Below, piece after piece: positions 2-29,300 of a stretch of 29,325 nt of DNA (position 1 is the first letter of the stretch; each line of letters opens with the position of its first letter). Origin of the DNA: a virus; IMG/VR virus record IMGVR_UViG_3300034101_000854, positions 1-29,325 of that record, one strand, 5' to 3'. The notes under the pieces are model-generated. The model was not told the origin of the DNA and made no database searches. It was given only the letters and a program-made list of their open reading frames with translations. Both the position numbers and the translations under genes were made by a program.

Positions 2-3000
2 AAACCAGGAATGACCGTTGCTGACTTCCAGAGAATAGCTCAGGAAAAAGGATTTGCAGCGGCGGCTGCTGAGGCACCTAAATATATAGTTGAACAAGTA
101 TTACAAAGCGCTCCTCAAATGGCTGGCCCTCTGGCTGTCGGTGCTGGTGCTGCTGCATTGTCTGGCCCCCTTGCTCCTATAGTTGGCCCTGTAGCTGGTA
201 TTGCTACCTACGGTGTTCAGCAGTTTGGTAATTTCTTAATGCGTCAAGCTAAAGAAAAGAATGATCCAGAAGAACTAGAACTTACCAAGGCGGCATTAAC
301 TGCTGCTGGTACTGCACCTATTGGATATTTTGCCGACCGGTTTACTGTTGGATTAGGTGGTGTAGGTAAGAACGCAGGTGAGCAAGTTATTAAAGAGTTA
401 GCTGCAAGACGTGCTGCTGGTGAGATAGGTGCTGGTGCTGTCGGTAAAGAGATAGCTAAGCGTGCTGGTAAAGGTGCAACAATTGGTGTTATTGCCGAAG
501 CTCCGACTGAGGTTCTTGAGCAAGTAGCTGAGCGCTATCAGGCTGGACTTGATCTAAACGACGAGGAAGCTAAGAACGAATACAAAGAAGCTTTCTTTGG
601 CGCTGCCGCAGCCGGTGGTGGTATCGGTGGAGCTGCTCGTGGTGCTACAGGATACGCACAATATAGAAGTCAGCTAAATCAAGCTAGGGCTGAAGCAGGC
701 TTACCACCTGAAGCGCCGTCTGCTAGAGAGAACGCAATTGAGGAGGCAAACACTTATGAAGCTACTGGAAATGTCCCCGGAACAGATCAATCTGGCGTTT
801 CTTTGCCTACAGAAGAAGGCGCAGCCATCAAAGGAGCTACTGGAATTACCGGAGGAGACTTGGGTGGAGCTGGGCAACCTCCTGGAGGCCCTACAAATAG
901 AGAAGAGTTACTCAACAATCAACTAAACGAACTACGTGGACAGCAAGCCGAGATAGCTAAATTTGATCCTACTGATCCCAGAATAGGTGAGATTGATGAA
1001 GTAATTAAAGAACTTCAAGCCGAGCGTAAAGCCCAAGTGTTTAATGCACCTGGCGAGCGTAATTTTGAAACTGTAAGTGATGAAGATTACAAAGCTAATT
1101 TTACATATAACGTTTACGATAAAAAAGAAGGGTATGAGGATTTTCCTAAGCGATATGGTGTAGGCACTGCAGAAGCTGGTAGCGAAGCATATTTTGATAC
1201 CCTAGAAGAAGCTAAGGCATACGCAGCTGAGCAACAAGCTTGGATGGATAAAACACGGCGGCGTTATAGGGCTACAACCTTCAATGCGCCTAGCCAAGAC
1301 TCGTTTGAATTTACTGAGCCTATTGGCGAACCAGATCGCAAAATAACTACCGAAGCCCCTGCTGAATTTACCCTAACCGCACCCGAAGGAGTTGTGCCTG
1401 AAGCTGCTGGTATTGAAGCCGCACCTGAGCCAGAACGTGCTCGGATGATGTTAATTGGTGAGCCTACCAATCCAACTAAACCCCTTAATTCTTTCTTTAA
1501 TAGCCTAAAGCCCGACACAGGCAACCCTGCTCAAGCCGTATCTTTTAGAAACGAAGTCAATAATCTACTTAATGAAGTAGCTGAGTTTGTCGGTGCGCCT
1601 ATGACTAAACAAGTCACTCGCTTTGAAGGCGAAGGCAAAGGCCCAGACGTTACCGCACCTGCTACAGGCCCAGAACTAGCAAATCGTATGCAGTTCTTAA
1701 ACAACTTCTTTGACAGTATTAGCGTAGCACCTAAAGAACGTGAAGCAATAACATCTGCGCTGTCTCAGCGCTTTGCTGGTATGTCTGCCAAAGACCAAGG
1801 TGCAGCCCTATCTGGTTTAACCAACGTACCTAAATTAAATACTTTACGTGGTATACGTGAGTTCCGTGCCAAGTTATCTGACGCCCTAGGTAAGTTTGAA
1901 CGTACCAGAATTGGTGAAGAAGAAACCGCCCTACCTTACAAACTAACTGATGACTTAGCTAAGATGGAACCCTACACTGCTAGGGCTATAGCTAATGCTA
2001 TCCGTAGTATTGATCGGTCTAAGCCAGAGGGTGCAGCTGCTTATGCTTACTTTGGTCCTGAGACTGGATGGCGTTACAGTTTGGCAATGCGCTCGGCTGC
2101 GTTTGACCTAGGAGCTGAGTTAAATACATACGCTACCGCACCGTTTAAAGATCAAAACAAAGACCAGGCAAAACTGTTTAGGGCTTGGGTTGAAGAGAAT
2201 TTACCTAGAACTGAACTTAAACGTTTTGATGCCACGGTAAAAGCCTACGAGCGGATGAACCAAAAAGGCGAAGAATTTAATAAACGCCGAGATGAACTTA
2301 AGAAAGAAGGTGGTGTAGCTCGTAAGTACATCACGATGATTACCCGTGCGCCGACTGGTAAAGAAGCAGCTAATCTTGTGCCCGATGCTGGCATGGGTAA
2401 ATATAAAGTCCGTGGGGAAGTAACCAAGCTAGACCCAACCAAGTTTTACCCAATGCACCCAGCTATCCAAGACCGGATTGCTAATAATGACCTACAAGGT
2501 GCTTTGCAGTTAATGGCTAGAAACCCAGGTAAGCAAGCTTCTAATGCTATGAAGTTTGTGGCTCGTTATGCCGAGCGGTTAGCTGAACTAGGACTTAAAT
2601 CTGAAATCGGGATAAATCAACAAGCTAATATTGCAGCGCATTTAATTAGAGCAAACGCTGGTCCGCAGCGTCGCATGCTTTTACAACAACTTGAAAGTTT
2701 TGAATGGGGTCCACAGTTTATTAAAGAGGCTGGGTTGGATGGTGCTATTAATGACCCCAAGACTATGCGTCAGACTTTGAACGCATTAGAAGGCATCAAA
2801 GCTGGGCAAATTAAATTTAAAGAAGATGTTATAGCCCCGGTGTATGGGCAGTTCATGGATACCCTTGAGGCTTACAAAGAAGCCGTCGGTGTGCTTGACT
2901 CGCTTGGTTCCTACTCTCCAGACCTTAACTTTATCAATATCAATGCCGACCTTGGCGGTATGAACCCAGCTACTTTCTTACACGAAGTAACACATGCTGC

Positions 3001-6000
3001 CACCATATATGCTCTAGAACCTGCAAACTATAGCAAGCTAACACAGGCACAGAAAGACGCCGTTGATGAGTTAAAAGAATTGCATGAGTTTGCTGTCAAG
3101 AAGTACGACACTCTGAAGAAGTTTATGCCCTTGTCCAAGATGGATGAGTATGGCTTTAAGAATATTCAGGAGTTTGTAGCCGAGCTTATGTCTAACGAGC
3201 GCTTCCAAGACGTGCTCAAGAAGATGAAGTACAAAGATGGCAAGACTTCTATGTGGGATCGCTTTGTACGCTTTGTTAAGCAGATGTTTGGTTTGGATAA
3301 CGTTGCTGGCTATAGTATGGCTAGGGTTAACGACATCCTCATGGCGTCCCCAGAACTAAGCAAAGAAGCCGTTGTTCACAACATGGGTGGTCGGACAAGA
3401 AAGCGTGTGTCTAATGGCACGATGCCAAGCAACCCAGGTTACATGTCGTTTATGGACAAAGTATTTGGTGGGCGTCCAGCATGGGGTGGAGTGCGTGGCG
3501 CTATGGGTGACTTTCTTGATAACGTCAATACTACGTCCCGTAAATATTACTTGGGTGCCTTTACCCTACGGCAACTTAATGACCTAGTCGGCAACCGCAT
3601 TCCTCAGTTTAGAACCTTTATTGCCAAGGTCGAGGGTATGTTAGACGAGCGTAACCGTCGCCTAGAAGAAGTCCGTAAGATTACCGACAAGTGGATGCGC
3701 TTTCAGAGTGACAACCCCGCTCAAGTAGATGTGCTCAATGGCGTAATGCTTGATGCTACCTTGCAAGGCAAAGACCCAGATAAAGGTTCAACAGGCGATA
3801 CCGTAATTGACAATGCTTGGATTAAGCTAAACGACGAAGGTAAAGCCATTTATCGCATGGTGCGTGACTACTACAAGAAGAACTTGCAAGACTATATTGA
3901 TACTATTGTTGAGAACAAAAAGGCTGGGCTACGCACAACTATCGACGTAAACAGCCCACAATACAAAGCCGAGACTGCTGCGTTAGAACAAGACCCAGAA
4001 GTCAAAAAAGTCCGTGAGTACTTTAAAAAACACACCCTAGAACCATACTTCCCAATCCGCCGTTTTGGTCGGTTCTCGTTGCAGTTAAGGGAAGGCAAGC
4101 AAAAAGAGTTCTATTTATTTGAAAGCGCTGCCGACCGTAAGGCATTTATGCGTAAGCGCATCCCTGAGCTCGAGGCTGAGATTGGTCGCTCGTTAACTAC
4201 TGATGAGGTAATTACCCGGAACTCTATCCAGAAACTAGCATCGGAAAACATGCGGGACTTTACCTTCTTGCGTGACCTCAAAGAAATTGTGCAGACTGCC
4301 AAGGGTTCAGGTAGCGCCGAGCTTAAGAACAACATTGAAGAGAGCCTAGAACAGCTTTACTTCTTGACCTTGCCTGACCAGAGCATCCGCAAAGCGTTTA
4401 TGAATCGTAAGGGCACCGCCGGTATGAACACCGATATGCTCCGTGCCTTTACATCGTCGGCTTTTCACATGTCGTATCAGCAGTCTCGGTATAAGTTTAG
4501 CCGTGGGTTGTATGGTGATATTGACGCAGCCAAGCAGTTTGTACGTAGCAAAGGTGGCAAAGAAGGTGAAGTTGATGCCGAGTATTTAGGCGAGCTTGAC
4601 CAACGCTTGGGCTACATCATGAACCCAACAGACACAGGAACAATACCGTCGTTCTTGTCAAACGCTTCGTTTATCTGGTTTATGACATCCCCAGCTTCGG
4701 CTTTGGTAAACATGATGGGTGTGCCAGCAGTGGGCGCCCCCGTGCTATCGGCTAAGTTTGGTGCAGCTAATACCGTCAAGAAGATTGCCGAATACACCAA
4801 AAAGTTCACTTCTACTGGGTTTAGGGATACCGATGGCAACATAGCCTTCCCGTCATTTACCAACAAACCTCAGTTGTTTACTCCTATTCAGCAGCGTGCG
4901 TTTGACCAGTTCGTTGCCGACGGTTTGATAGATATTACGCTGTCTCACGACTTGGTTGGAATGGCAGAAGCTCCGTCTAACCTATACACAAGCAGAACAC
5001 AAACTGCTATGAAGTGGCTAAGCGGTATGTTCCACGGTGCTGAGAAGTTTAACCGTGAGATTGTGTCTATGTCGGCCTTTGATATGGCATACGAAAAGGC
5101 CAAGAAGTCTGGCTACAGTGACGACGCTGCCTATCGCAAGGCTATTGATACTGCCAAGGATCTGACCTATAAGTCGATGTTTGACTACTCCACGCTAAAT
5201 AAACCACGCTACTTTCAACAGCCAGCGATGAAGGTTATCCTGCAGTTCAAGCAGTTCTCGCAACAGATGACCTATTTGTTAGCCCGTAGCACCTACGAGT
5301 GGATTGGCAAGAGCTATACCCCTGAAGAAATCCAAGACATCAAGTATCAAATCAAAGTCGACCATGACCAAAATAAACCAGGTTTGCCACCTCTTACAGA
5401 AGCAGAGTTGGACGCAGCCGTGCAGCAATATATTAAAGACGTGCGTATAGAAGCACGGGACCGCTTAGGTGGAACATTAGGTATGACTGCCGTATTTGCT
5501 GGGGCTAGTGGTTTACCCTTATGGTGGATGGTATCGGGCGTAATGAATGCTATGCACGCTGTGTTTGGTGAAGAAGATGAAGAGTTTGACTTTGAGAACT
5601 GGTTTAAGAACTGGTCTGAAAAGACCTTTGGTGGCTTCGTAGGCTCGGCTATCAGTCGTGGTGTTGTATCGCAAGTGCTTGGTGCCGACGTAGCCAGCCG
5701 TCTAAGCCTAAATGACATGTGGTACAGGGATACCCGCAATAGCCCAGATAACGTAACTGCCTTGCAAAATATGTTTATTAACCTGCTCGGCCCAACCGCC
5801 GGCCTAACTGTAAACGTAGCAAAAGGACTTGACCAGTTCCAAGATGGCTATATGGATCGTGCCTTTGAAACATGGAGCCCAGCGCTTGTTAAAAACATCC
5901 TAAAGAGCGGCAGATTCCTTGAAGAAGGCCGAGCCACTACCATCCGTGGTAATGAGCTCTTAGGGGATATTACAGGCTCAGAGATAGCTGCTCAAGCATT

Positions 6001-6337
6001 AGGGTTTACCCCAGAGCGTTTAGCCCAGCGTCAAAAAGCCAACATCGAAATGAAGACGGCGGAGCAAAAGATCTTGCAAAAGCGTCAGGCTTTACTTGAT
6101 GCCTTCTTTATGTCCATAGATAACGCTGATGACGACATGCGAGAGCGTGTTTTAGATAAAGTTGTATCGTACAACCGAGCAAACCCAGGTATGGCAATCC
6201 TGCCTGATAATCTTGTACGTTCTGTAGAGACCCGCTTTAAGCAACGTGCCTTAGCCGACAGTCTTGGTGGTATGGCTCTTAATAAGAAACTTATTGGTCA
6301 GTTAGCTGACATGGGTGATTACGGTAGACCTGACTAA
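2..6337 (+). CDS. Giant virion-associated multi-domain protein with zincin-like peptidase motif (5'-partial)
   Basis: The frame is open from base 2. The first ATG (11) has no usable ribosome site, because AGGA abuts it, so the true start probably lies to the left of the window. At least 2,108 residues are present. The first ~230 residues are Ala/Gly-rich with hydrophobic stretches, followed by a long low-complexity linker. Residues 991-995 (counted from the ATG at 11) read HEVTH, and a downstream EFVAE at 1054-1058 could give the third zinc ligand, as in zincin metallopeptidase domains of phage 'large polyvalent proteins'. Hydrophobic segments occur near 1550-1580 and 1825-1845. The C-terminal ~150 residues are helical and charged. 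Its length, architecture and strand opposite to the replication genes fit an internal virion protein ejected with the DNA. That role is inferred; the protease motif is seen directly. Confidence 0.85.
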   Translation, partial: KPGMTVADFQRIAQEKGFAAAAAEAPKYIVEQVLQSAPQMAGPLAVGAGAAALSGPLAPIVGPVAGIATYGVQQFGNFLMRQAKEKNDPEELELTKAALTAAGTAPIGYFADRFTVGLGGVGKNAGEQVIKELAARRAAGEIGAGAVGKEIAKRAGKGATIGVIAEAPTEVLEQVAERYQAGLDLNDEEAKNEYKEAFFGAAAAGGGIGGAARGATGYAQYRSQLNQARAEAGLPPEAPSARENAIEEANTYEATGNVPGTDQSGVSLPTEEGAAIKGATGITGGDLGGAGQPPGGPTNREELLNNQLNELRGQQAEIAKFDPTDPRIGEIDEVIKELQAERKAQVFNAPGERNFETVSDEDYKANFTYNVYDKKEGYEDFPKRYGVGTAEAGSEAYFDTLEEAKAYAAEQQAWMDKTRRRYRATTFNAPSQDSFEFTEPIGEPDRKITTEAPAEFTLTAPEGVVPEAAGIEAAPEPERARMMLIGEPTNPTKPLNSFFNSLKPDTGNPAQAVSFRNEVNNLLNEVAEFVGAPMTKQVTRFEGEGKGPDVTAPATGPELANRMQFLNNFFDSISVAPKEREAITSALSQRFAGMSAKDQGAALSGLTNVPKLNTLRGIREFRAKLSDALGKFERTRIGEEETALPYKLTDDLAKMEPYTARAIANAIRSIDRSKPEGAAAYAYFGPETGWRYSLAMRSAAFDLGAELNTYATAPFKDQNKDQAKLFRAWVEENLPRTELKRFDATVKAYERMNQKGEEFNKRRDELKKEGGVARKYITMITRAPTGKEAANLVPDAGMGKYKVRGEVTKLDPTKFYPMHPAIQDRIANNDLQGALQLMARNPGKQASNAMKFVARYAERLAELGLKSEIGINQQANIAAHLIRANAGPQRRMLLQQLESFEWGPQFIKEAGLDGAINDPKTMRQTLNALEGIKAGQIKFKEDVIAPVYGQFMDTLEAYKEAVGVLDSLGSYSPDLNFININADLGGMNPATFLHEVTHAATIYALEPANYSKLTQAQKDAVDELKELHEFAVKKYDTLKKFMPLSKMDEYGFKNIQEFVAELMSNERFQDVLKKMKYKDGKTSMWDRFVRFVKQMFGLDNVAGYSMARVNDILMASPELSKEAVVHNMGGRTRKRVSNGTMPSNPGYMSFMDKVFGGRPAWGGVRGAMGDFLDNVNTTSRKYYLGAFTLRQLNDLVGNRIPQFRTFIAKVEGMLDERNRRLEEVRKITDKWMRFQSDNPAQVDVLNGVMLDATLQGKDPDKGSTGDTVIDNAWIKLNDEGKAIYRMVRDYYKKNLQDYIDTIVENKKAGLRTTIDVNSPQYKAETAALEQDPEVKKVREYFKKHTLEPYFPIRRFGRFSLQLREGKQKEFYLFESAADRKAFMRKRIPELEAEIGRSLTTDEVITRNSIQKLASENMRDFTFLRDLKEIVQTAKGSGSAELKNNIEESLEQLYFLTLPDQSIRKAFMNRKGTAGMNTDMLRAFTSSAFHMSYQQSRYKFSRGLYGDIDAAKQFVRSKGGKEGEVDAEYLGELDQRLGYIMNPTDTGTIPSFLSNASFIWFMTSPASALVNMMGVPAVGAPVLSAKFGAANTVKKIAEYTKKFTSTGFRDTDGNIAFPSFTNKPQLFTPIQQRAFDQFVADGLIDITLSHDLVGMAEAPSNLYTSRTQTAMKWLSGMFHGAEKFNREIVSMSAFDMAYEKAKKSGYSDDAAYRKAIDTAKDLTYKSMFDYSTLNKPRYFQQPAMKVILQFKQFSQQMTYLLARSTYEWIGKSYTPEEIQDIKYQIKVDHDQNKPGLPPLTEAELDAAVQQYIKDVRIEARDRLGGTLGMTAVFAGASGLPLWWMVSGVMNAMHAVFGEEDEEFDFENWFKNWSEKTFGGFVGSAISRGVVSQVLGADVASRLSLNDMWYRDTRNSPDNVTALQNMFINLLGPTAGLTVNVAKGLDQFQDGYMDRAFETWSPALVKNILKSGRFLEEGRATTIRGNELLGDITGSEIAAQALGFTPERLAQRQKANIEMKTAEQKILQKRQALLDAFFMSIDNADDDMRERVLDKVVSYNRANPGMAILPDNLVRSVETRFKQRALADSLGGMALNKKLIGQLADMGDYGRPD

Positions 6338-6360
6338 AAAAGCCCCCACCGAAGTGGGGG
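6336..6360 (-). terminator. Leftward intrinsic terminator with cUUCGg loop
   Basis: A 7-bp GC-rich stem (6343-6349 with 6354-6360) encloses CGAA. On the minus strand this is a UUCG tetraloop closed by C-G, followed by six U residues (6341-6336). It ends the leftward replication operon just before the convergent end of the giant gene. On the plus strand the hairpin has no T-run, so it would be weaker for the rightward gene. Confidence 0.85.
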
Positions 6361-6416
6361 TAAAGTCATCTTAACAAGGAAAAAATGAAGTAGTCACAGA
6401 CTACGTCTAAATCATA
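6361..6416. other. Convergent intergenic gap with small hairpin
   Basis: This short gap holds a perfect 6-bp inverted repeat, GTAGTC-ACA-GACTAC, at 6390-6404. Just upstream is a plus-strand AAGGA-like site followed by a two-codon ATG-AAG-TAG. No protein-coding content is supported. Confidence 0.4.
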
Positions 6417-12932: not shown

Positions 12933-13107
12933 AGCGATCTCCTTCTTTGCGGAAAAAATAGACTGAACCATCAGCCAATATCACGTATTTTATGTCGCTT
13001 TGGGGGTCGTCGCCAAGCATATCTTTTAGCATGGCTTCAATCTCTTCCTTAGACATTTGCGTGTCTTCGATGTCGACATTGCCTACAAACGGAATCGGCT
13101 CAATCAT
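12889..13107 (-). CDS. Small acidic hypothetical protein
   Basis: A 72-residue acidic protein. An N-terminal helical part is rich in Glu, Asp and Met (MSKEEIEAMLKDMLGDD), followed by a beta-rich stretch with 'YVILADGSVYFFRKEGDRY'. The ATG overlaps the methyltransferase stop (ATGA), and GGAG lies 10 bases upstream. The 3' end overlaps the HNH start by 44 bases. I do not recognise a family. Confidence 0.7.
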   Translation of the reverse strand: MIEPIPFVGNVDIEDTQMSKEEIEAMLKDMLGDDPQSDIKYVILADGSVYFFRKEGDRYALCEQTPPLQEGI

Positions 13108-13841
13108 TTCAGCATTTCTCCATGGTCGGGGTGTTGTGCAAGATTATTACTATTGATGCCTTCGGTTATCTCGTAGCCGTGCCCTTTGAGGTAGTCAAAC
13201 AACGCAGTGCGTTTCTCCTGATACCAAGGCTTCCATGTCCACGCTTCAAAGATAATCGGCGGATACTTGTTGTATTTGATAGTCTCAATACCGCCCTTGA
13301 TAACTTCTAGTTCGTGCCCTTCAACGTCAATCTTAATTAGGCGCACATTAGCATGTTGTCCATCGTCTAATGGGAACACCACCATGGTTTCTTTTGCGCC
13401 TTGAGTTGGGCATTCGTACTCAGTCTCACGCACTTCTTTATCAATACTAAAAGCACCGATGTTGGTCTCGTTGGCATAGTCAGGGACTACTATCTCAAAT
13501 CGATCCCGTTTGTCAGACAAACCAAAGTTATGACAATGGACATTATCTAGTCCATTAATCAAGGTATTGCCACATAATTGGTAATAGATTATCCGTTGTG
13601 GTTCAAACGCATGGAAGGTCAAGTGTGGGTTAGACTTAGCCAAAGGTAGCGTAAAACTACCCAAGTTAGCACCGATGTCCAACACTACACCATCTTCATG
13701 TTTTTGAAGTATCTTCTGAGCGATACCAAAGACTTCTATCTCGTAGCCCCCTTGCCTGAGTGCATTTGAGATAAGGTCTCTACCCTTAAATACTAGATAC
13801 TGAGTACCGAAGGCATTAACAAGTTCGCAGTTAGGTAGCAT
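13104..13841 (-). CDS. FkbM-family SAM-dependent methyltransferase
   Basis: A 245-residue methyltransferase. The SAM-binding motif I is VLDIGANLGSF (54-63), with AFEP at 78-81 ending the second strand and IKIDVEGHE at 169-177. The last is the hallmark of the FkbM (Methyltransf_21) family, which usually O-methylates sugars or small molecules. It follows the glycosyltransferase with a one-base gap and probably acts with it on a glycan or on modified phage or host components. The substrate cannot be read from the sequence. Starts at ATG 13841 with AAGGG just upstream. Confidence 0.9.
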   Translation of the reverse strand: MLPNCELVNAFGTQYLVFKGRDLISNALRQGGYEIEVFGIAQKILQKHEDGVVLDIGANLGSFTLPLAKSNPHLTFHAFEPQRIIYYQLCGNTLINGLDNVHCHNFGLSDKRDRFEIVVPDYANETNIGAFSIDKEVRETEYECPTQGAKETMVVFPLDDGQHANVRLIKIDVEGHELEVIKGGIETIKYNKYPPIIFEAWTWKPWYQEKRTALFDYLKGHGYEITEGINSNNLAQHPDHGEMLK

Positions 13842-13842
13842 G

Positions 13843-14619
13843 TCAAGCCCTTGGCAATGTGCCGTTGAAGTTATAAGTACCGCTATGGGTTAGCTGAGCC
13901 CAAGGCGCCGCATATACCTTAAAGCCATTCTGTCTAGCCAGCTTGCAAAAGTGATAGTCTTCTGAAAGCAAACGGTTGGTCGGTTCGTCGATGCTTGTAG
14001 CAAAATATTCATGGATGATCTTCTTTACTGGGTTCTTGTCAACAATGAGAATCATGTCGTTGGTATAGGTCGGCACTTTGTCTTTAAGGGCTTCAAACAC
14101 ACTACGTTTAATTAACATAAAACCTGTGCCGCCGTTGTCGATTTCCATAGGTTCGTTAATACTGCCTGTGCTTTCCATTGCACCACCTACTAAATTAACT
14201 ACGAACGAGCCTGTGTAGTTGGGCAAGTCTTTATAGTCGACACCACGCTTGACCGCATCGGATACTAACTGCCAGTTAATTTCTTTTTTAGGGTACAAGC
14301 CACAGATGATGTCTTTATCAGCATCAATCATCCGCACAATGTCAGCAGGGTTAAACGTAATGTCTGCATCAATAAACATCAGATGTGTTGCATCGGGTGT
14401 ATTTAAAAAATCATACGCCAAACCGTTACGAGCCCGTGTAATTAAAGACTCATTCATCATGTACGAGTAATACATCTTGATGCCGTGCTTCATAAACTCT
14501 TGAGTGCAGTTTAGGATACCCATGGTGTAACCGCCTACGCACATACCACCGTACATTGGTGTGGCTACAAATAGAATGGCTGGCTTTTTTGCTTCTACTG
14601 CTGGTACGTTTTCTAACAT
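13843..14619 (-). CDS. GT-A fold glycosyltransferase
   Basis: A 258-residue protein. It starts with a beta strand (ILFVATPMYGG) and has a DxD metal/nucleotide-sugar site, FIDADITF (D84-A-D86). The later SEDYHFC segment matches the acidic catalytic region of GT-A enzymes, and the C-terminus ends in 'HSGTYNFNGTL', common in phage members of this group. Such enzymes transfer sugars from nucleotide donors. In phages they modify DNA bases, surface glycans or virion proteins. AAGGAG precedes the ATG by 6 bases. Together with the FkbM gene it forms a two-gene glycan or base modification unit inside the replication operon. Confidence 0.85.
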   Translation of the reverse strand: MLENVPAVEAKKPAILFVATPMYGGMCVGGYTMGILNCTQEFMKHGIKMYYSYMMNESLITRARNGLAYDFLNTPDATHLMFIDADITFNPADIVRMIDADKDIICGLYPKKEINWQLVSDAVKRGVDYKDLPNYTGSFVVNLVGGAMESTGSINEPMEIDNGGTGFMLIKRSVFEALKDKVPTYTNDMILIVDKNPVKKIIHEYFATSIDEPTNRLLSEDYHFCKLARQNGFKVYAAPWAQLTHSGTYNFNGTLPRA

Positions 14620-20055: not shown

Positions 20056-20103
20056 GTGCTTTGCAAAAATATTTTTATTAGGACTTACCCGTAGTTCACA
20101 AAG

Positions 20104-20116
20104 CGACACGGTGTCG
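20104..20116. repeat. Intergenic inverted repeat, copy a
   Basis: CGACAC-G-GTGTCG. Its flanks (GTAGTTCACAAAG on the left, TTTTGTTAA on the right, plus strand) match the flanks of the four other copies. The asymmetric flanks point rightward here. It lies between the terminator and the replication promoter. Confidence 0.7.
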
Positions 20117-20130
20117 TTTTGTTAAGCAAT

Positions 20131-20155
20131 AAAAAAGCCCCTCCGAAGAGGGGCT
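20131..20155 (-). terminator. Leftward intrinsic terminator with cUUCGg loop
   Basis: An 8-bp stem (20136-20143 with 20148-20155) closes a UUCG loop on the minus strand and is followed by six U residues (20136-20131). It would end transcripts of the early AAA+/VWA region before the replication promoter. Nearly the same design as the hairpins at 6336 and 29272. Confidence 0.85.
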
Positions 20156-20159
20156 CGAG

Positions 20160-21523: not shown

Positions 21524-22411
21524 CTAAAAGTTCATCTTGTTAAGAATAGCGTCTACCTTTGCCTTGGCATCTGTGCGTGCAGTAAACGATTCACGCAAAG
21601 TATCGGCATCATACTTGTCAAGGATACCCTTGAGGTCTTTGCGTGCTTGTTCCATCTGTGGGTCTTTGGTCAGATTCAAGTGCTGTAACAAACCTACCAA
21701 CTCTTTGGCATTTTCAACCAAACTATCTCGGAACACCCTGAACTCGTGGCTCGGTGTGCCGTCTTCGTCATGCACTACATCAACAACTAGGCGATCACTC
21801 ATGCGGGTCAAGCAGTCCTTCAACCTTTCCCAAGCATCACGCATAGCGTTATTGAGCCTGTCGTTGTAAGCCTTCTCGCAGTTAGAAAGGATCTCGGCTT
21901 TGGCTTCTTCGTTGATGTCGATGCGGAAGTCCCCCGCCTGTGGCACTGGGAAGAAACTGTATTGCATTGAGAACCGATTGCGTAGCGTATGCACTTCGGG
22001 ATATTCTGTTCTGTCAAATAGATCACCCAACTGAAATGCGGCGGCGATGATTAGGTTTGGATAAGCATCAATAAACTTATCGACTAATGCGTTGTAGCCT
22101 TGTTCCATCACACCCAACTGTTCTTTGTATGCCATGAAGTTTGACATAGGCAGAAGTCGTGAGCCGTTGTCAGTCCAAGGCAAAGTTTGTGATATGTGCC
22201 AAGAGCGTATTGCGGCGGCTTGCTTGATGATCTTATCCAATACACCAGTGCCAGCCATAAGATTCTTGTTAGCGTTGACTACCGATGTCTTGGTCTTCTT
22301 CGCATTGTCAATCTCGGCAGAGACACTCTTATCCAACTTGCGACCAGTCCAACTACGAATACTGAGTTCGACAAGCATTGCTGATGATCCGATTGAAATA
22401 CTGTTATTCAT
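21524..22411 (-). CDS. DUF3150-like protein of the AAA+/VWA module
   Basis: AAGGAG 6 bases before the ATG at 22411 sets the start (295 aa). The N-terminus 'SIRSWTGRKLDKSVSAEI' and the later 'SWHISQTLPWTDNGSRLLP' with 'YPNLI' resemble the conserved blocks of DUF3150, a helical family often found beside MoxR-type ATPases and VWA proteins in phages. The rest is mostly helical and charged, without catalytic motifs. It is separated from the VWA gene by the small ribbon-helix-helix gene and inverted repeat copy b. Likely a partner or substrate adaptor of the AAA+/VWA pair. The family call is from memory of its motifs. Confidence 0.75.
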   Translation of the reverse strand: MNNSISIGSSAMLVELSIRSWTGRKLDKSVSAEIDNAKKTKTSVVNANKNLMAGTGVLDKIIKQAAAIRSWHISQTLPWTDNGSRLLPMSNFMAYKEQLGVMEQGYNALVDKFIDAYPNLIIAAAFQLGDLFDRTEYPEVHTLRNRFSMQYSFFPVPQAGDFRIDINEEAKAEILSNCEKAYNDRLNNAMRDAWERLKDCLTRMSDRLVVDVVHDEDGTPSHEFRVFRDSLVENAKELVGLLQHLNLTKDPQMEQARKDLKGILDKYDADTLRESFTARTDAKAKVDAILNKMNF

Positions 22412-22439
22412 TTGATTCTCCTTGGTTAAGTTCACATTC

Positions 22440-22452
22440 CGACACTACGTCG
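22440..22452. repeat. Intergenic inverted repeat, copy b
   Basis: CGACACTACGTCG, the least symmetrical copy. Its left flank AAGTTCACATT and right flank TTTTGTTAA still match copy a. The TAG stop of the ribbon-helix-helix gene (22447-22445) lies in its centre, which may explain the changed centre. Confidence 0.65.
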
Positions 22453-22597
22453 TTTTGTTAATTTGATTGACGATATGTTGTATTACTTGAGAAAAGGATG
22501 GAACAAAGCCCAGAATCTCGGCAAGCCTATCCCTTTCTTTTTTAAGCAACTCCATTGTCTCGGGGTTAATCGAGACATTTACTTTTTTACTGTTCAT
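22445..22597 (-). CDS. Ribbon-helix-helix (Arc/CopG-like) DNA-binding protein (50 aa)
   Basis: A 50-residue gene with AAGGAG 6 bases before the ATG. The product has the ribbon-helix-helix layout: a short strand KKVNVSIN, helix A from PETMELLKKERDRLAEI, a turn GFVPS, and helix B from FSQVIQHIVNQI. Such proteins dimerise and bind palindromic operators with the paired strands. Its stop codon sits inside inverted repeat copy b, directly upstream of the DUF3150-like gene, so autoregulation and control of the other copies is an attractive idea, but it is inferred. It lies 10 bases after the VWA gene. Confidence 0.8.
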   Translation of the reverse strand: MNSKKVNVSINPETMELLKKERDRLAEILGFVPSFSQVIQHIVNQINKTT

Positions 22598-22607
22598 CGT
22601 CTTCTCC

Positions 22608-23867
22608 TTATTCCACATGAACGACTTTGCCTACGACTGTTGAGTCTTTGAAGTGACGATTGCCTTTCACGCACCACAACACAGGCATACCGATCTCCCA
22701 ATTACTTGGTTCTTGAGCGGGGATATACCCGTCGGTCAGCATCAATAGACACTCACCTCTTATGTTGTGCTTGTGCATATACTTAGGCACACAGGCGGGC
22801 TCAGTCCCACCCCCACCCGCAGGCTTTGTGGACTCTACGAGGTTGGATAGCTCGTTGCTTTGATATGTTTCTCGTGATGCCACATGAGTATCCCAATACA
22901 ACACATCAATAGCCTCGGGCGATACCTCATCACAGATAGACTTCACCTCGGACAAGAACTGCGTCAACTCCTCAGTCCCAATCGAACCCGATGTGTCGAT
23001 ACCAATGACAATGCTACCTACCTTCTCGTCATAACTGCTGGGCATAATGATGTCTGAGGCTATGTATCTCTTGTGTAAGCGTCGCCAAGATGTTTGGTCT
23101 TTGCCTTGCGTGACAGACTTCACAAACTCACGCAGAGCATCTTTCCAATTTATTTTGGGCACAAGCATCTCGCTAATGTTGCGATCCACATTGCCACCCA
23201 TCTTACCCACGAGAATAGAACCTTGACGCAGAGCAGACTCGATCTCCTTGGCTTGGGATTCCTTCTCTTGCTCGGACATAGACTCAGCACCTTCCCAATC
23301 ATGCTCGTCTAGTCCATCGGGTAGCCCTTCGCCTTGACCCTCGCCCTCGCCTTGCTCGTTGCCACCGCCTACGACATACACCTTCTGTTTACCCGCATCT
23401 TTGCCATGCTTCTTGACAAGTTCGAGAAACACTTGGTGTGCATCCATGCCACGATATGCTTCATCCATACAACCTAGGTTCTTGCCGTCAGGCGTTGTTG
23501 GGAACTCGGTGACTTCCTGTTCCCTGTCATAGTCGTGTATCTGCAAGTTAATGACATAGTCGCAAGCCATGTTCGCAAGCACAGCGTTCTGTTTGTATAA
23601 CTTTTCCCATACGATCAAATGCCGATAAGCCTTGTGCATATTCTCGTGTAGGATAAGAAACGACAACTGCTTGTCATTCAGACTATCGACAAAGCCTCGA
23701 CCATAGATCACATCGAGTCCGTTGGTTTGTGCGGTGAACGGCAAGTCCTTGTCCACCACGCTTACCTTGCCAATCATGAACAAGCCTGAGAACAATGCAA
23801 AGTTCTTGTGCTTCATCATCTGCACATGGCATCTTTCGATGCGTTGCTCGGCAGTTAGTTTAGCCAT
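22608..23867 (-). CDS. DUF2201-type metallopeptidase-like/VWA protein
   Basis: A 419-residue two-domain protein. The N-terminal ~150 residues match the putative metallopeptidase domain of DUF2201, with H74-E-N-M-H78 as an HExxH motif. A Gly/Glu/Gln-rich linker (~168-190) follows. The C-terminal VWA-like domain has the metal site DTSGS (291-295), GGGGT (351-355) and LTDG (377-380). VWA proteins partner with MoxR-type AAA+ rings (compare NorD, ViaA, CobT), and the ATPase is encoded just upstream. AAGGAG lies 7 bases before the ATG, which overlaps the upstream gene by 13 bases. The target is unknown. Both the peptidase and metal sites look intact. Confidence 0.9.
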   Translation of the reverse strand: MAKLTAEQRIERCHVQMMKHKNFALFSGLFMIGKVSVVDKDLPFTAQTNGLDVIYGRGFVDSLNDKQLSFLILHENMHKAYRHLIVWEKLYKQNAVLANMACDYVINLQIHDYDREQEVTEFPTTPDGKNLGCMDEAYRGMDAHQVFLELVKKHGKDAGKQKVYVVGGGNEQGEGEGQGEGLPDGLDEHDWEGAESMSEQEKESQAKEIESALRQGSILVGKMGGNVDRNISEMLVPKINWKDALREFVKSVTQGKDQTSWRRLHKRYIASDIIMPSSYDEKVGSIVIGIDTSGSIGTEELTQFLSEVKSICDEVSPEAIDVLYWDTHVASRETYQSNELSNLVESTKPAGGGGTEPACVPKYMHKHNIRGECLLMLTDGYIPAQEPSNWEIGMPVLWCVKGNRHFKDSTVVGKVVHVE

Positions 23868-24125: not shown

Positions 24126-25220
24126 TTAGAATAGATACTGATTAGTCCGCATCCAATCAACAAACGATTGGCTCGTAAAGAACAACTTCTTCTTCTCGTC
24201 GTCTTTCATACCTGAGAGGCAGAACACAGACTGCAACTCCTTCGGTGTGCGTTTCAGATACTCAAAGAACTTACCGATGGTTTGACGATCAATCTTCTGC
24301 ACCGCAGAGAACGCAAGCAAGCACAAAGCGGCTGGACTATTCGGAACTACTGCGTTGTTGGGGTCTTTGATGATGGATTCCCAAGTCGGTAGGCTGTCGG
24401 CTACGGCAACATAAGCCATCAAATCTCTAGCTGCTGGTGCACCAATCGTGCCTTCCAATGCACAGATAACTGCGTTTTCCGTGAAGTCGTTGCGTTTTTT
24501 GAGAATGTTTGACGCACGCTCGAGCGAACGGGGAGAGACAAATGACCGTTGCACCTCTTTAGGATTAAAGATATATTTGTTCCCGTTCTGTCCCGCATCA
24601 AGATAAGATGCCAAGGCTTGTGGTGTCTCACGAACCCAAGCAAGAATCTCAGGTGCGATCTCGTTCTTCAAAGCCCATTCACCCCAAGAGTTCGGATCGA
24701 CTGAACCATCAACATTCAAACCCGCATGAGGCTTACGCACATTGACCACACTAATACGATTACGAGAGTGAGCCATCATGTTATCGCCTACACCATCGGT
24801 AGTGTAATTACCTGCCGTTACGACTATCGTTTTCTCGTGTAAGGGGATACCCATAATCATGCGTGGGTGGTTGAGCATCGGGTGCAACATATTCTTAACT
24901 GACTGATGACCCTTGGTGAACTCGTCGGCAAACACTACGAGTGGCTCGTTAAGATGAAAACCCCATTGCTCGTTCGGGTAGATGCGAGTAGTCTTGGTCT
25001 CGTGGTTTGGAATCGGAATACCCAACTCACCCAACTCCACATTAGGCACATCAATGTAGATACCACGAAAGCCTGTCCGTGCCACGATGTTCTTGAACAT
25101 AGAAGTCTTACCGACCCCTGGCTCACCCATCAGATGGAAGGTAGCACCTTCGCCCATACCAACAATCATATCCTCGGCTTCTTTTAGGTTTACGAGGCGG
25201 TTCAAAATTACTTCAGACAT
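24126..25220 (-). CDS. MoxR-type AAA+ ATPase
   Basis: A 364-residue AAA+ protein. Walker A is GEPGVGKTS (32-40), Walker B VVFADEF (95-101), sensor 1 TAGNYT with N138, and an Arg-finger-like HSRNR near 150-154. The family type fits MoxR/CobS-like ATPases. These form hexameric rings and remodel protein targets, guided by a VWA partner, here the gene two positions downstream. AAGGAG precedes the ATG by 6 bases. Inverted repeat copy c sits about 39 bases before the start, so this gene leads one cassette of the early region. Confidence 0.92.
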   Translation of the reverse strand: MSEVILNRLVNLKEAEDMIVGMGEGATFHLMGEPGVGKTSMFKNIVARTGFRGIYIDVPNVELGELGIPIPNHETKTTRIYPNEQWGFHLNEPLVVFADEFTKGHQSVKNMLHPMLNHPRMIMGIPLHEKTIVVTAGNYTTDGVGDNMMAHSRNRISVVNVRKPHAGLNVDGSVDPNSWGEWALKNEIAPEILAWVRETPQALASYLDAGQNGNKYIFNPKEVQRSFVSPRSLERASNILKKRNDFTENAVICALEGTIGAPAARDLMAYVAVADSLPTWESIIKDPNNAVVPNSPAALCLLAFSAVQKIDRQTIGKFFEYLKRTPKELQSVFCLSGMKDDEKKKLFFTSQSFVDWMRTNQYLF

Positions 25221-25258
25221 TTAATTCTCCTTGTTTAGATTAAAAATTACATAACAAA

Positions 25259-25273
25259 CCGACACCATGTCGG
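25259..25273. repeat. Intergenic inverted repeat, copy c
   Basis: CCGACA-CCA-TGTCGG, with AACAAA on the left and GTTGTGAACTAC on the right (plus strand). It occupies the 61-base gap before the AAA+ gene and, as RNA, would form a 6-bp hairpin with a 3-nt loop. Confidence 0.8.
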
Positions 25274-25281
25274 GTTGTGAA

Positions 25282-26268
25282 CTACTCTGCACCTTTGACA
25301 TACTTAGCGTTGCGATCACGGAAGGGCACACCAATCTCTTGCGGTATTCTCTCGAACACTACTTCCTCATGGTGATACTTGATGATCTCGTCAAACGCTC
25401 TAGCAAAACTACTTGCTTTAGCAGAATACAAACTGCTCCGATACGAATAGTCCGACGCACCCGAGGCAACCACATACATGAGTTTGTATTTCATCTCGAG
25501 GTCGTTCTTCTCCATCGCCTCTTGCACAAGACGCATGAGCCTACTGCGTTGTTCGGGCACACTGATAACAACTTGTTTGTTGTTTAAGTCATACCTTGTG
25601 TATTCCTGATACCCACGAAAGCCGTCGGTCTGAAACTTAAACTCTTCTCGCATAGAACGAATCTTCTGCCAGTCGCCTAACTGTCCATCAGCCATGAGCA
25701 TGGTCTTGCCGTATTCAATGAAGTCGTTGTAATACTTTCGCAACTTGTTCATCTCTTTGCGACGCACCGCAAACTTGTGCTCTTGCTTGATGTCGGTTGG
25801 TCTAAAGCCATGCCCGTCAACAAACTTGATCGACATCTCAGATCCGTAGGCAGTAGGCATCGGGAAGGCTTCGCCAATCTTGTTGACGAAATACCACTTG
25901 CTACCCTCAGATGCGACCTCGCCTATGTATTCCTTGAGCACATAGTTCAAGAACATCATAGTCGTAGGGCCCCGCCATTGGTTTACACGCAAGATAATCT
26001 CCCCATCAGGGAAGAACTCGATGCAGTCGGTCGCATACAACTTGCACGCATAGGAAGTGACGAACTCTCCGAGTGGATTGTCCTCGGATTCTTTGCTTGA
26101 ATGACGCTTATGAATCTGCATCCATGTGTAGCGTCGGTTCTTGCCAAGGGGTTTCTCCTCGGGGTATCGCCCACGAATGGGCTTGACCTCCTCGAATATC
26201 CGCTTTGCCATGTCAAAGTTAGCGATGCTTGGCAGTCGGGCAGAATTGTAGGTATGGGTGTGATACAT
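25282..26268 (-). CDS. Hypothetical early protein (328 aa)
   Basis: A 328-residue soluble protein. 'GKNRRYTWMQIHKRH' near 43-55 is basic. A beta-rich middle contains 'FPDGEIILRVNQWRGPTTMM', and the C-terminal half is helical and charged (MRRLRK-type segments and 'QEAMEKNDLEMKYKLMYVVA'). The ATG overlaps the upstream stop as TAATG, with AGGGGG upstream. It lies just before the AAA+ gene, separated by copy c. It may be a substrate or partner of the module, but this is position only. No family recognised. Confidence 0.8.
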   Translation of the reverse strand: MYHTHTYNSARLPSIANFDMAKRIFEEVKPIRGRYPEEKPLGKNRRYTWMQIHKRHSSKESEDNPLGEFVTSYACKLYATDCIEFFPDGEIILRVNQWRGPTTMMFLNYVLKEYIGEVASEGSKWYFVNKIGEAFPMPTAYGSEMSIKFVDGHGFRPTDIKQEHKFAVRRKEMNKLRKYYNDFIEYGKTMLMADGQLGDWQKIRSMREEFKFQTDGFRGYQEYTRYDLNNKQVVISVPEQRSRLMRLVQEAMEKNDLEMKYKLMYVVASGASDYSYRSSLYSAKASSFARAFDEIIKYHHEEVVFERIPQEIGVPFRDRNAKYVKGAE

Positions 26269-26807
26269 TACTTGCCCCCCTTAAATAGCAAGGACTCGTA
26301 ATGCTCGACAAGAATCTTGAGCCTGCGGTTCTCCGCCATGAGTTCGTTGTTGGTGTTGGTTTCAGGAGGGACATATATTTCGGGGAACACACCTCGTCTT
26401 TGAAGTGCATCTCTCCATGGGGTCTCCATACCATCTTCGTATAAGCCGTTCTCGATCTTGGGCTTTTTGATCTTAGTCGGCTTTGCCTTTTCCTTGGTTG
26501 CGTCTTTGATTAGCATGATCTTCAACTCTTTGGTTTTCTTGGCTCTGCGTTGTAGGGCTTTGACCCGCTTGGGGTTGCGTATCTTCCACATGGCTGTGTG
26601 AATTGTGTTCACTTGCTTGCCTGTTAGATTGGCAATCTCAGGGGCTTTGGTAATCCCATGCTCTATGCACCACTTCGTTGCTTCCATGATAGACATGGTT
26701 TTGAAGTCAGGCGTTGTGGGGGTTGGAGAGGGATTTGTCGGTGCACTTGGCAACGAGGCTAGGTCTTGCTTTACTTTCTCTAATAATGCGTTTACTTCGG
26801 GTTTCAT
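26268..26807 (-). CDS. Putative HTH-containing early protein (179 aa)
   Basis: The start at 26807 has AAGGAG 6 bases upstream; the frame open to 26837 lacks a site. A Pro-rich spacer (~20-34) leads to a helix-turn-helix-like region at ~38-78 ('APEIANLTGKQVNTIHTAMW'), then a Lys-rich stretch. A motif 'WRDALQRRGVFPEIYVPP' (131-148) and a final leucine-rich helix (~155-174), likely a coiled coil, follow. DNA binding and self-association are plausible. It may regulate early genes. Confidence 0.7.
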   Translation of the reverse strand: MKPEVNALLEKVKQDLASLPSAPTNPSPTPTTPDFKTMSIMEATKWCIEHGITKAPEIANLTGKQVNTIHTAMWKIRNPKRVKALQRRAKKTKELKIMLIKDATKEKAKPTKIKKPKIENGLYEDGMETPWRDALQRRGVFPEIYVPPETNTNNELMAENRRLKILVEHYESLLFKGGK

Positions 26808-26838
26808 AATTAACTCCTTGGTTAGATTGATTAACATA

Positions 26839-26853
26839 CCGACACCATGTCGG
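26839..26853. repeat. Intergenic inverted repeat, copy d
   Basis: CCGACA-CCA-TGTCGG, identical in core to copy c. AACATA lies on the left and CTTGTGAACTGCGG on the right. It is in the gap between the 88-aa membrane protein and the HTH-like gene. Confidence 0.8.
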
Positions 26854-26880
26854 CTTGTGAACTGCGGTGATACTTACTGC

Positions 26881-28578: not shown

Positions 28579-28596
28579 AATCATCTCCTTAACAAA

Positions 28597-28642
28597 CCGA
28601 CAAACTGTCGGGAAGTGAACTGCGGTTGAACTGCGATTGAAC
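28597..28642. repeat. Intergenic inverted repeat, copy e, with 11-bp phased TGAACTGCG repeats
   Basis: CCGACA-AAC-TGTCGG at 28597-28611 lies between AACAAA and AGTGAACTGCGG. Two exact TGAACTGCG units (28616-28624, 28627-28635) and a partial third (28638-28642) follow at an 11-bp period, i.e. on one face of the helix. The array lies downstream of the early promoter start, immediately before the first ribosome site. Confidence 0.75.
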
Positions 28643-28682: not shown

Positions 28683-28711
28683 AGTATACCACAGATAGTA
28701 TACAATGTCAA
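28683..28711 (-). promoter_or_regulatory. Strong leftward early promoter (sigma-70 type)
   Basis: On the minus strand: TTGACA (28711-28706), exactly 17 bases, then TATACT (28688-28683), placing the start near 28676. It is the best sigma-70 match in the window. The element contains two direct copies of TAGTATAC on the plus strand (28682-28689 and 28696-28703), one over the -10 box and one in the spacer, which could be a repressor site. Confidence 0.85.
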
Positions 28712-28825
28712 GTTTTTGTTAGGTTTAGTGGGAGAAAGTAGGAGGGATTTTGGGGAGTGTTATGGGTGCAAGGGGATTGCGTTGCCCTTGCGGTGGGGGT
28801 TGCGGGTATTAGGGTTTACGAGGGT

Positions 28826-29193: not shown

Positions 29194-29271
29194 GAACCAA
29201 AAAACGGAAAAGGGCTAATGCGTTGCTACAAATGACCGTTCCTTAAAAATAAGAAGAATAAAAATATAAAC

Positions 29272-29296
29272 AAAAAAGCCCCACCGAAGTGGGGCT
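29272..29296 (-). terminator. Leftward intrinsic terminator with cUUCGg loop
   Basis: An 8-bp stem (29277-29284 with 29289-29296) closes a UUCG loop on the minus strand and is followed by six U residues (29277-29272). It nearly repeats the hairpins at 6336-6360 and 20131-20155. It would stop leftward transcripts entering from the right. Confidence 0.8.
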
Positions 29297-29300
29297 AGAT

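Follow-up and report, generated by a model that had tools for sequence, protein, structure and literature searches.

In a group of related uncultured phages, copies of one ~31-bp palindrome stand at the gene starts of a single early-type region, and on balance we lean towards reading them as an operator that is recognised by a protein family referred to below as F8, with a 50-aa ribbon-helix-helix (RHH) protein as an accessory. The focus thereby shifts away from the RHH gene, which is likely an accessory, and towards an operator regulon that is family-wide and differs in dialect from phage to phage. The analysis started from one stretch of viral DNA of 29,325 nucleotides (the window), in which five 31-bp palindromes were found with scores of 38-44, the threshold of 9.7 having been set higher than the best score of a shuffled window. 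Copy a (20095-20125) has a terminator on one side and the promoter-like sequence of the VRR-NUC/polymerase unit on the other. Copy b (TTCACATTCCGACACTACGTCGTTTTGTTAA, 22431-22461) lies in the leader of a conserved 295-aa gene (21524-22411, minus strand), 19 nt 5' of its ATG, while copy c (25251-25281) and copy d (26831-26861) precede, by 30 nt and 23 nt, the ATG of an AAA+ ATPase gene (phrog_1297; 24126-25220, minus strand) and that of g189 (26268-26807, minus strand), whose 179-aa product is HTH-like in its N-terminal and coiled-coil-like in its C-terminal part. Copy e (28589-28619) is located 7 nt 5' of the ATG of the first small gene of its unit. All five share outer ACA/TGT and inner CGACA/TGTCG.

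A strong promoter of sigma-70-like type (TTGACA-N18-TATACT), which serves the unit, was read from the sequence at 28683-28712 (minus strand). It includes the repeat GTATAC-N8-GTATAC, part of which (TGTGGTATACTAATAGAGTGGGAATTCG) was found again in the related record G039 and could be a separate operator, perhaps the target of the RHH protein. A promoter within the palindrome itself (-35 TTCACA, -10 at the right arm) seemed possible in the window, but was rejected, as other dialects have TGTCC or TGTGC for the right arm and the promoter-like sequences, judged by eye, are 40-60 nt off. Three similar terminator-like stems (GCCCC..CCGAAG..GGGGC; 6334-6364, 20128-20158 and 29269-29299) divide the transcription units of the window. 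Outside the palindrome region, positions 11-6337 encode a protein of 2108 aa in which an LPD39 domain (large polyvalent protein associated) is recognised, and positions 13104-14619 an FkbM-type methyltransferase adjoining a weak Anp1-like glycosyltransferase match.

The 50-aa gene (22445-22597, minus strand; product MNSKKVNVSINPETMELLKKERDRLAEILGFVPSFSQVIQHIVNQINKTT) follows directly on a gene for a VWA/DUF2201 protein (phrog_1314; 22608-23867, minus strand), from whose stop its start is 11 bp apart. The first-pass annotation had described it as an ORF with a strong ribosome site and an Arc/CopG-like layout that belongs to the AAA+/VWA cassette and has its stop codon within copy b, and this description holds: the ribosome site AAGGAG is found 7 nt 5' of the ATG, the gene is located in the AAA+/VWA operon, and its stop codon (TAG, 22447-22445) is exactly the central CTA of the palindrome. 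A dN/dS of ~0.11-0.22 (NG86, against relatives) indicates that the gene is conserved and that purifying selection acts on it. In RHH proteins the N-terminal strand pairs in the dimer only. The AlphaFold2 model of the monomer (mean pLDDT 86.5) accordingly has residues 1-11 extended, with no strand assigned, ahead of helices 12-29 and 35-49, and agrees with the order of the RHH fold, i.e. an N-terminal strand with two helices thereafter. In a second-look structural comparison its best match was CopG (1ea4; Z 5.5, 2.0 A over 42 residues), further matches being Arc (1par; Z 5.2), AmrZ (5.0) and NikR (5.0). By sequence the protein remains below the Pfam RHH cut-off, with neither an RHH_1 nor a CcdA match for the window protein and sub-cut-off matches among relatives (RHH_1 in one, E 0.055; CcdA in 4 of 16, best E 0.0056), and a search of the PDB with a profile of the family returned no sequence relative. 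The gene is real and its product, as modelled, probably DNA-binding.

A scan with the AAA+ protein yielded 45 relatives with a common gene order (HTH gene, g328, AAA+, VWA, a small-ORF slot, the 295-aa gene, g338, VRR-NUC, polymerase). De novo search detected an array of a repeated ~31-bp palindrome at gene starts in nearly every record with the AAA+/VWA block, comprising 5-11 copies where coverage is good and 8-11 per near-complete genome, all of them, in the near-complete records, inside one region of 9-10 kb. The finder also gave a spurious array in G014 and, in places, additional sites of low score; copies scoring below 30 were discarded. The outer ACA/TGT is mostly conserved across phages and the core varies, the recorded forms being CCGACA, TCGACA, TCAAG, CGGAT, TCGAAA, GTGTCA, GTTACA, AATAAG, CTTAG, CAGACA, CTGACA and GCGACAT, so that ten or more phage-specific operator dialects are apparent from the sequences. 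Megablast of the region against phages found no relative, tblastn with the AAA+ protein only distant phage ATPases (24-26% identity among the matches listed), and a search of bacterial genomes no relative of the AAA+ gene; a literature search on these palindromes found nothing specific. Five more distant phages (L099, L103, L111, L113 and L115; terminase ~50% identical) also contain CCGACA palindromes, of which two are separated by 46 bp.

Strong inverted repeats located, in nearly all cases, 12-32 nt 5' of the start codon of the 295-aa gene could also function in RNA, as hairpins ahead of a ribosome site that are involved in processing, stability or translational control. RNA pairing would, however, require the two arms of a copy to match each other better than the arms of different copies, and the opposite was observed: arm pairing amounts to 0.73 within and 0.78 between copies, with the same direction in 26 of 27 phages (eight records were omitted, and several of the contigs are near-duplicates). 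Moreover, both arms share one half-site consensus, which matches the expectation for a symmetric protein-DNA site, and one copy, flanked by a terminator and a promoter, is not part of a leader. Also the two-base spacers between the outer ACA and the core are complementary in 28 of 193 cases against 40.6 expected in the 27 phages, and identical on the same strand in 64 against 45.3 expected, a bias that may indicate either a hidden polarity of the site or an avoidance of RNA hairpins. We therefore regard the hairpin explanation as very improbable. The palindromes fit a dimer- or tetramer-type DNA operator, and the earlier suggestion that the repeats are operator-like is borne out by these arm statistics.

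The protein family that best accounts for the dialects is F8 (~190-250 aa), which heads the palindrome region beside the terminase genes, the latter being on the other strand. Its place is outside the window, just beyond its end; every record of the group whose contig reaches this place has one or two F8 copies, each adjoining palindromes, and in L109, which has the dialect of the window, the F8 gene lies 30 nt behind a palindrome. F8 displays the strongest covariation with the operator (rho 0.53, partial 0.46, p 0.0005, n=19), compared with 0.16-0.31 for other genes in the same records. The candidates are separated by G029 and G010, two phages with different operators in which g328 is 91% and the HTH gene 79% identical but F8 only 28%. 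Conversely, G001 and G029 have a common dialect and F8 proteins that are 59% identical, although their g328 proteins are only 55% identical. The AlphaFold2 model of F8 is confident and helical (pLDDT 87). No known DNA-binding domain was recognised by significant family or fold match, nothing significant was obtained with Foldseek in PDB and BFVD, all PDB matches in a VIA second look had Z <5, and tblastn found nothing. F8 thus appears as an undescribed helical protein and as the best candidate for the reader of the palindromes, and we infer that it binds DNA and represses. In the distant CCGACA group no F8 profile match was found (L099 and others); L099 and L115 carry in the F8 position a 181-aa protein that is F8-like by eye.

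The RHH protein had initially been proposed as the regulator of the repeats, with the absence of its ORF from relatives that keep the repeats named as evidence to the contrary. This absence is what we found. About half of the phages that have the AAA+/VWA block and carry palindromes lack the gene: a profile search of whole records detected it in 19 of 42, and did not detect it in G035 (60 kb, nine palindromes), G036 (45 kb), G012, G018 and G025. G035 is incomplete, with contig ends that appear to border a missing capsid segment, an unlikely site for the RHH gene. In L016, L044, L025, L017, L027, L032-L035 and L045 no RHH ORF intervenes, the palindrome coming directly after the VWA stop and the 295-aa gene after the palindrome; altogether at least ten records lack the gene and retain the palindromes, including the one in the VWA/295-aa slot, and the gene was not found elsewhere in those records. 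The Pfam RHH_1 model is insensitive here, given that on whole records it gave a single weak match (G017) and missed the RHH-positive G039 and G032. The overlap of stop codon and palindrome is likewise incidental to the RHH gene, since, where a copy was found ahead of the 295-aa gene, its gap to the ATG is 12-32 nt whether or not RHH is present (with G017, at 91 nt, as outlier), while the RHH stop varies among relatives from 11 to 59 nt beyond the palindrome start. RHH relatives (64-69% identical) occur also in phages with another gene context, and the palindrome array was not seen in the stretches of these examined (up to 16 kb). Since many phages keep the palindromes without RHH, their reader is better sought in another family of phage proteins.

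It may still be that the RHH protein binds the palindromes in those phages that carry it, either by itself or in a Cro-like relation to F8, as partner or competitor. Apart from the predicted fold, this is suggested by the whole protein tracking the dialect beyond its neighbouring genes, with a partial Mantel correlation of 0.68 (n=11), or 0.35-0.49 in larger sets (n=20-26), in tests that, like that of F8, kept near-duplicate contigs and whose p-values retain some phylogenetic structure. In the KVNVS..ETM class the RHH strand alone correlates with the operator (rho 0.84, n=9), and in L151 a G007-like backbone (93-96%) goes with the GTGTCA operator and with an RHH of the GTGTCA type; no dialect with both RHH-positive and RHH-negative members was seen. 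The three residues that would contact DNA (K, N and S in the window protein), however, are uncoupled from the operator over all 26 proteins (rho -0.08, against 0.37 inside a narrow group), and in the wide CCGACA group they vary (N/S, T/A/K) under a fixed operator. Furthermore, comparison of L131 and G037, which are 91-96% identical in the 295-aa gene, g338 and VWA, reveals that the VRR nuclease next to copy a has been switched in the same way as the RHH gene next to copy b, so that linkage to switched palindromes explains the pattern without any binding by RHH. The tracking in the narrow group may hence reflect linkage or a secondary (Cro-like) role; together with the loss of the gene from palindrome-keeping records, this makes RHH binding unlikely, and the regulator role of the first-pass annotation is not supported.

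Somewhat less probable still is a reader among the remaining phage proteins, such as the small Cys-rich g117 protein encoded behind copy e, or in the host. The identity of g117 is higher in pairs of the same dialect (73% versus 50-57%) and its correlation with the operator is weak (partial 0.18), weaker than that of F8 in the same records, and a host protein would leave ten or more dialects unexplained. The HTH/coiled-coil protein g189 might be expected to read the palindromes from its HTH-like segment and its position directly behind copy d, but it was rejected because it does not follow the dialect: it is 79% identical in two phages with different dialects, has three or more unrelated types of N-terminal part among phages of the GTGTCA dialect alone, and is not encoded at this place in L008, L014, L017, L024 and L046. 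Among all readings considered we give this one the least credence. Across phages the g189 proteins keep a YLEGK-type coiled-coil-like C-terminal end and possess several, apparently unrelated, DNA-binding-like N-terminal domains, as if a reading head had been swapped between phages.

Under the preferred reading, with F8 as reader, F8 would bind every copy of its own dialect, also those that surround the F8 gene, and would restrain transcription at many early-type gene starts together, in the manner of stoperators; operator and F8 co-diverge into phage-specific dialects. The RHH protein would be an accessory DNA-binding protein, encoded in the unit's small-ORF slot, that has a target of its own or acts at most as a helper or competitor. 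No match to a tyrosine or serine integrase, a resolvase or ParA was obtained in the 12, mostly incomplete, records searched, and a temporal switch or the exclusion of co-infecting phages therefore fits better than classical lysogeny. More tentatively, and with slightly less than even confidence, we propose that F8 represents a new class of regulator with no known fold, which silences or times the early region through ~10 symmetric 31-bp operators, in at least ten mutually foreign dialects and in a phage family without sign of lysogeny, RHH being an optional second player. The dialects provide a natural collection of matched protein/operator pairs and, if F8 is the reader, a new DNA-binding fold with a directly testable code. 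They also raise the question why phages without detectable integrase diversify their operators as temperate phages diversify immunity.

Several known systems invite comparison. The 50-aa protein resembles the Arc and CopG repressors (1par, 1ea4) in predicted fold and size, but the palindrome adjoining its gene is independent of that gene. In lambda-type immunity, CI and Cro share operators; a second small DNA-binding protein could here likewise use the same operators as the main repressor, and this would account for the correlation of RHH with the dialect, although this sharing is putative and many of the phages lack RHH. Cluster A mycobacteriophages (L5, Bxb1) contain many repressor sites per genome, mostly not at promoters, and repressor and site consensus co-diverge between phages (PMC6550527). 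Their stoperators are asymmetric, 13-14 bp long and present in 20-30 copies per genome of these temperate phages (PMC6550527). The phages described here are similar in having many copies of one site (5-11, at gene starts), which diverges together with a putative repressor, F8. They differ in that the sites are symmetric, ~31 bp long and confined, at 8-11 per near-complete genome, to one early-type region, with only the spacers hinting at a polarity, in that the candidate protein is without known fold, and in that an integrase was not found in the 12 records. In the temperate Bacillus prophage SPbeta, the master repressor MrpR, which has a tyrosine-recombinase fold, binds a repeated intergenic element, SPBRE (15-bp motif), at ~10 places (PMC10516654). 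F8 differs from MrpR in having no tyrosine-recombinase fold match, and the two systems are alike in a repeated element with a presumed single reader; SPBRE was predicted long before its reader became known (PMC10516654).
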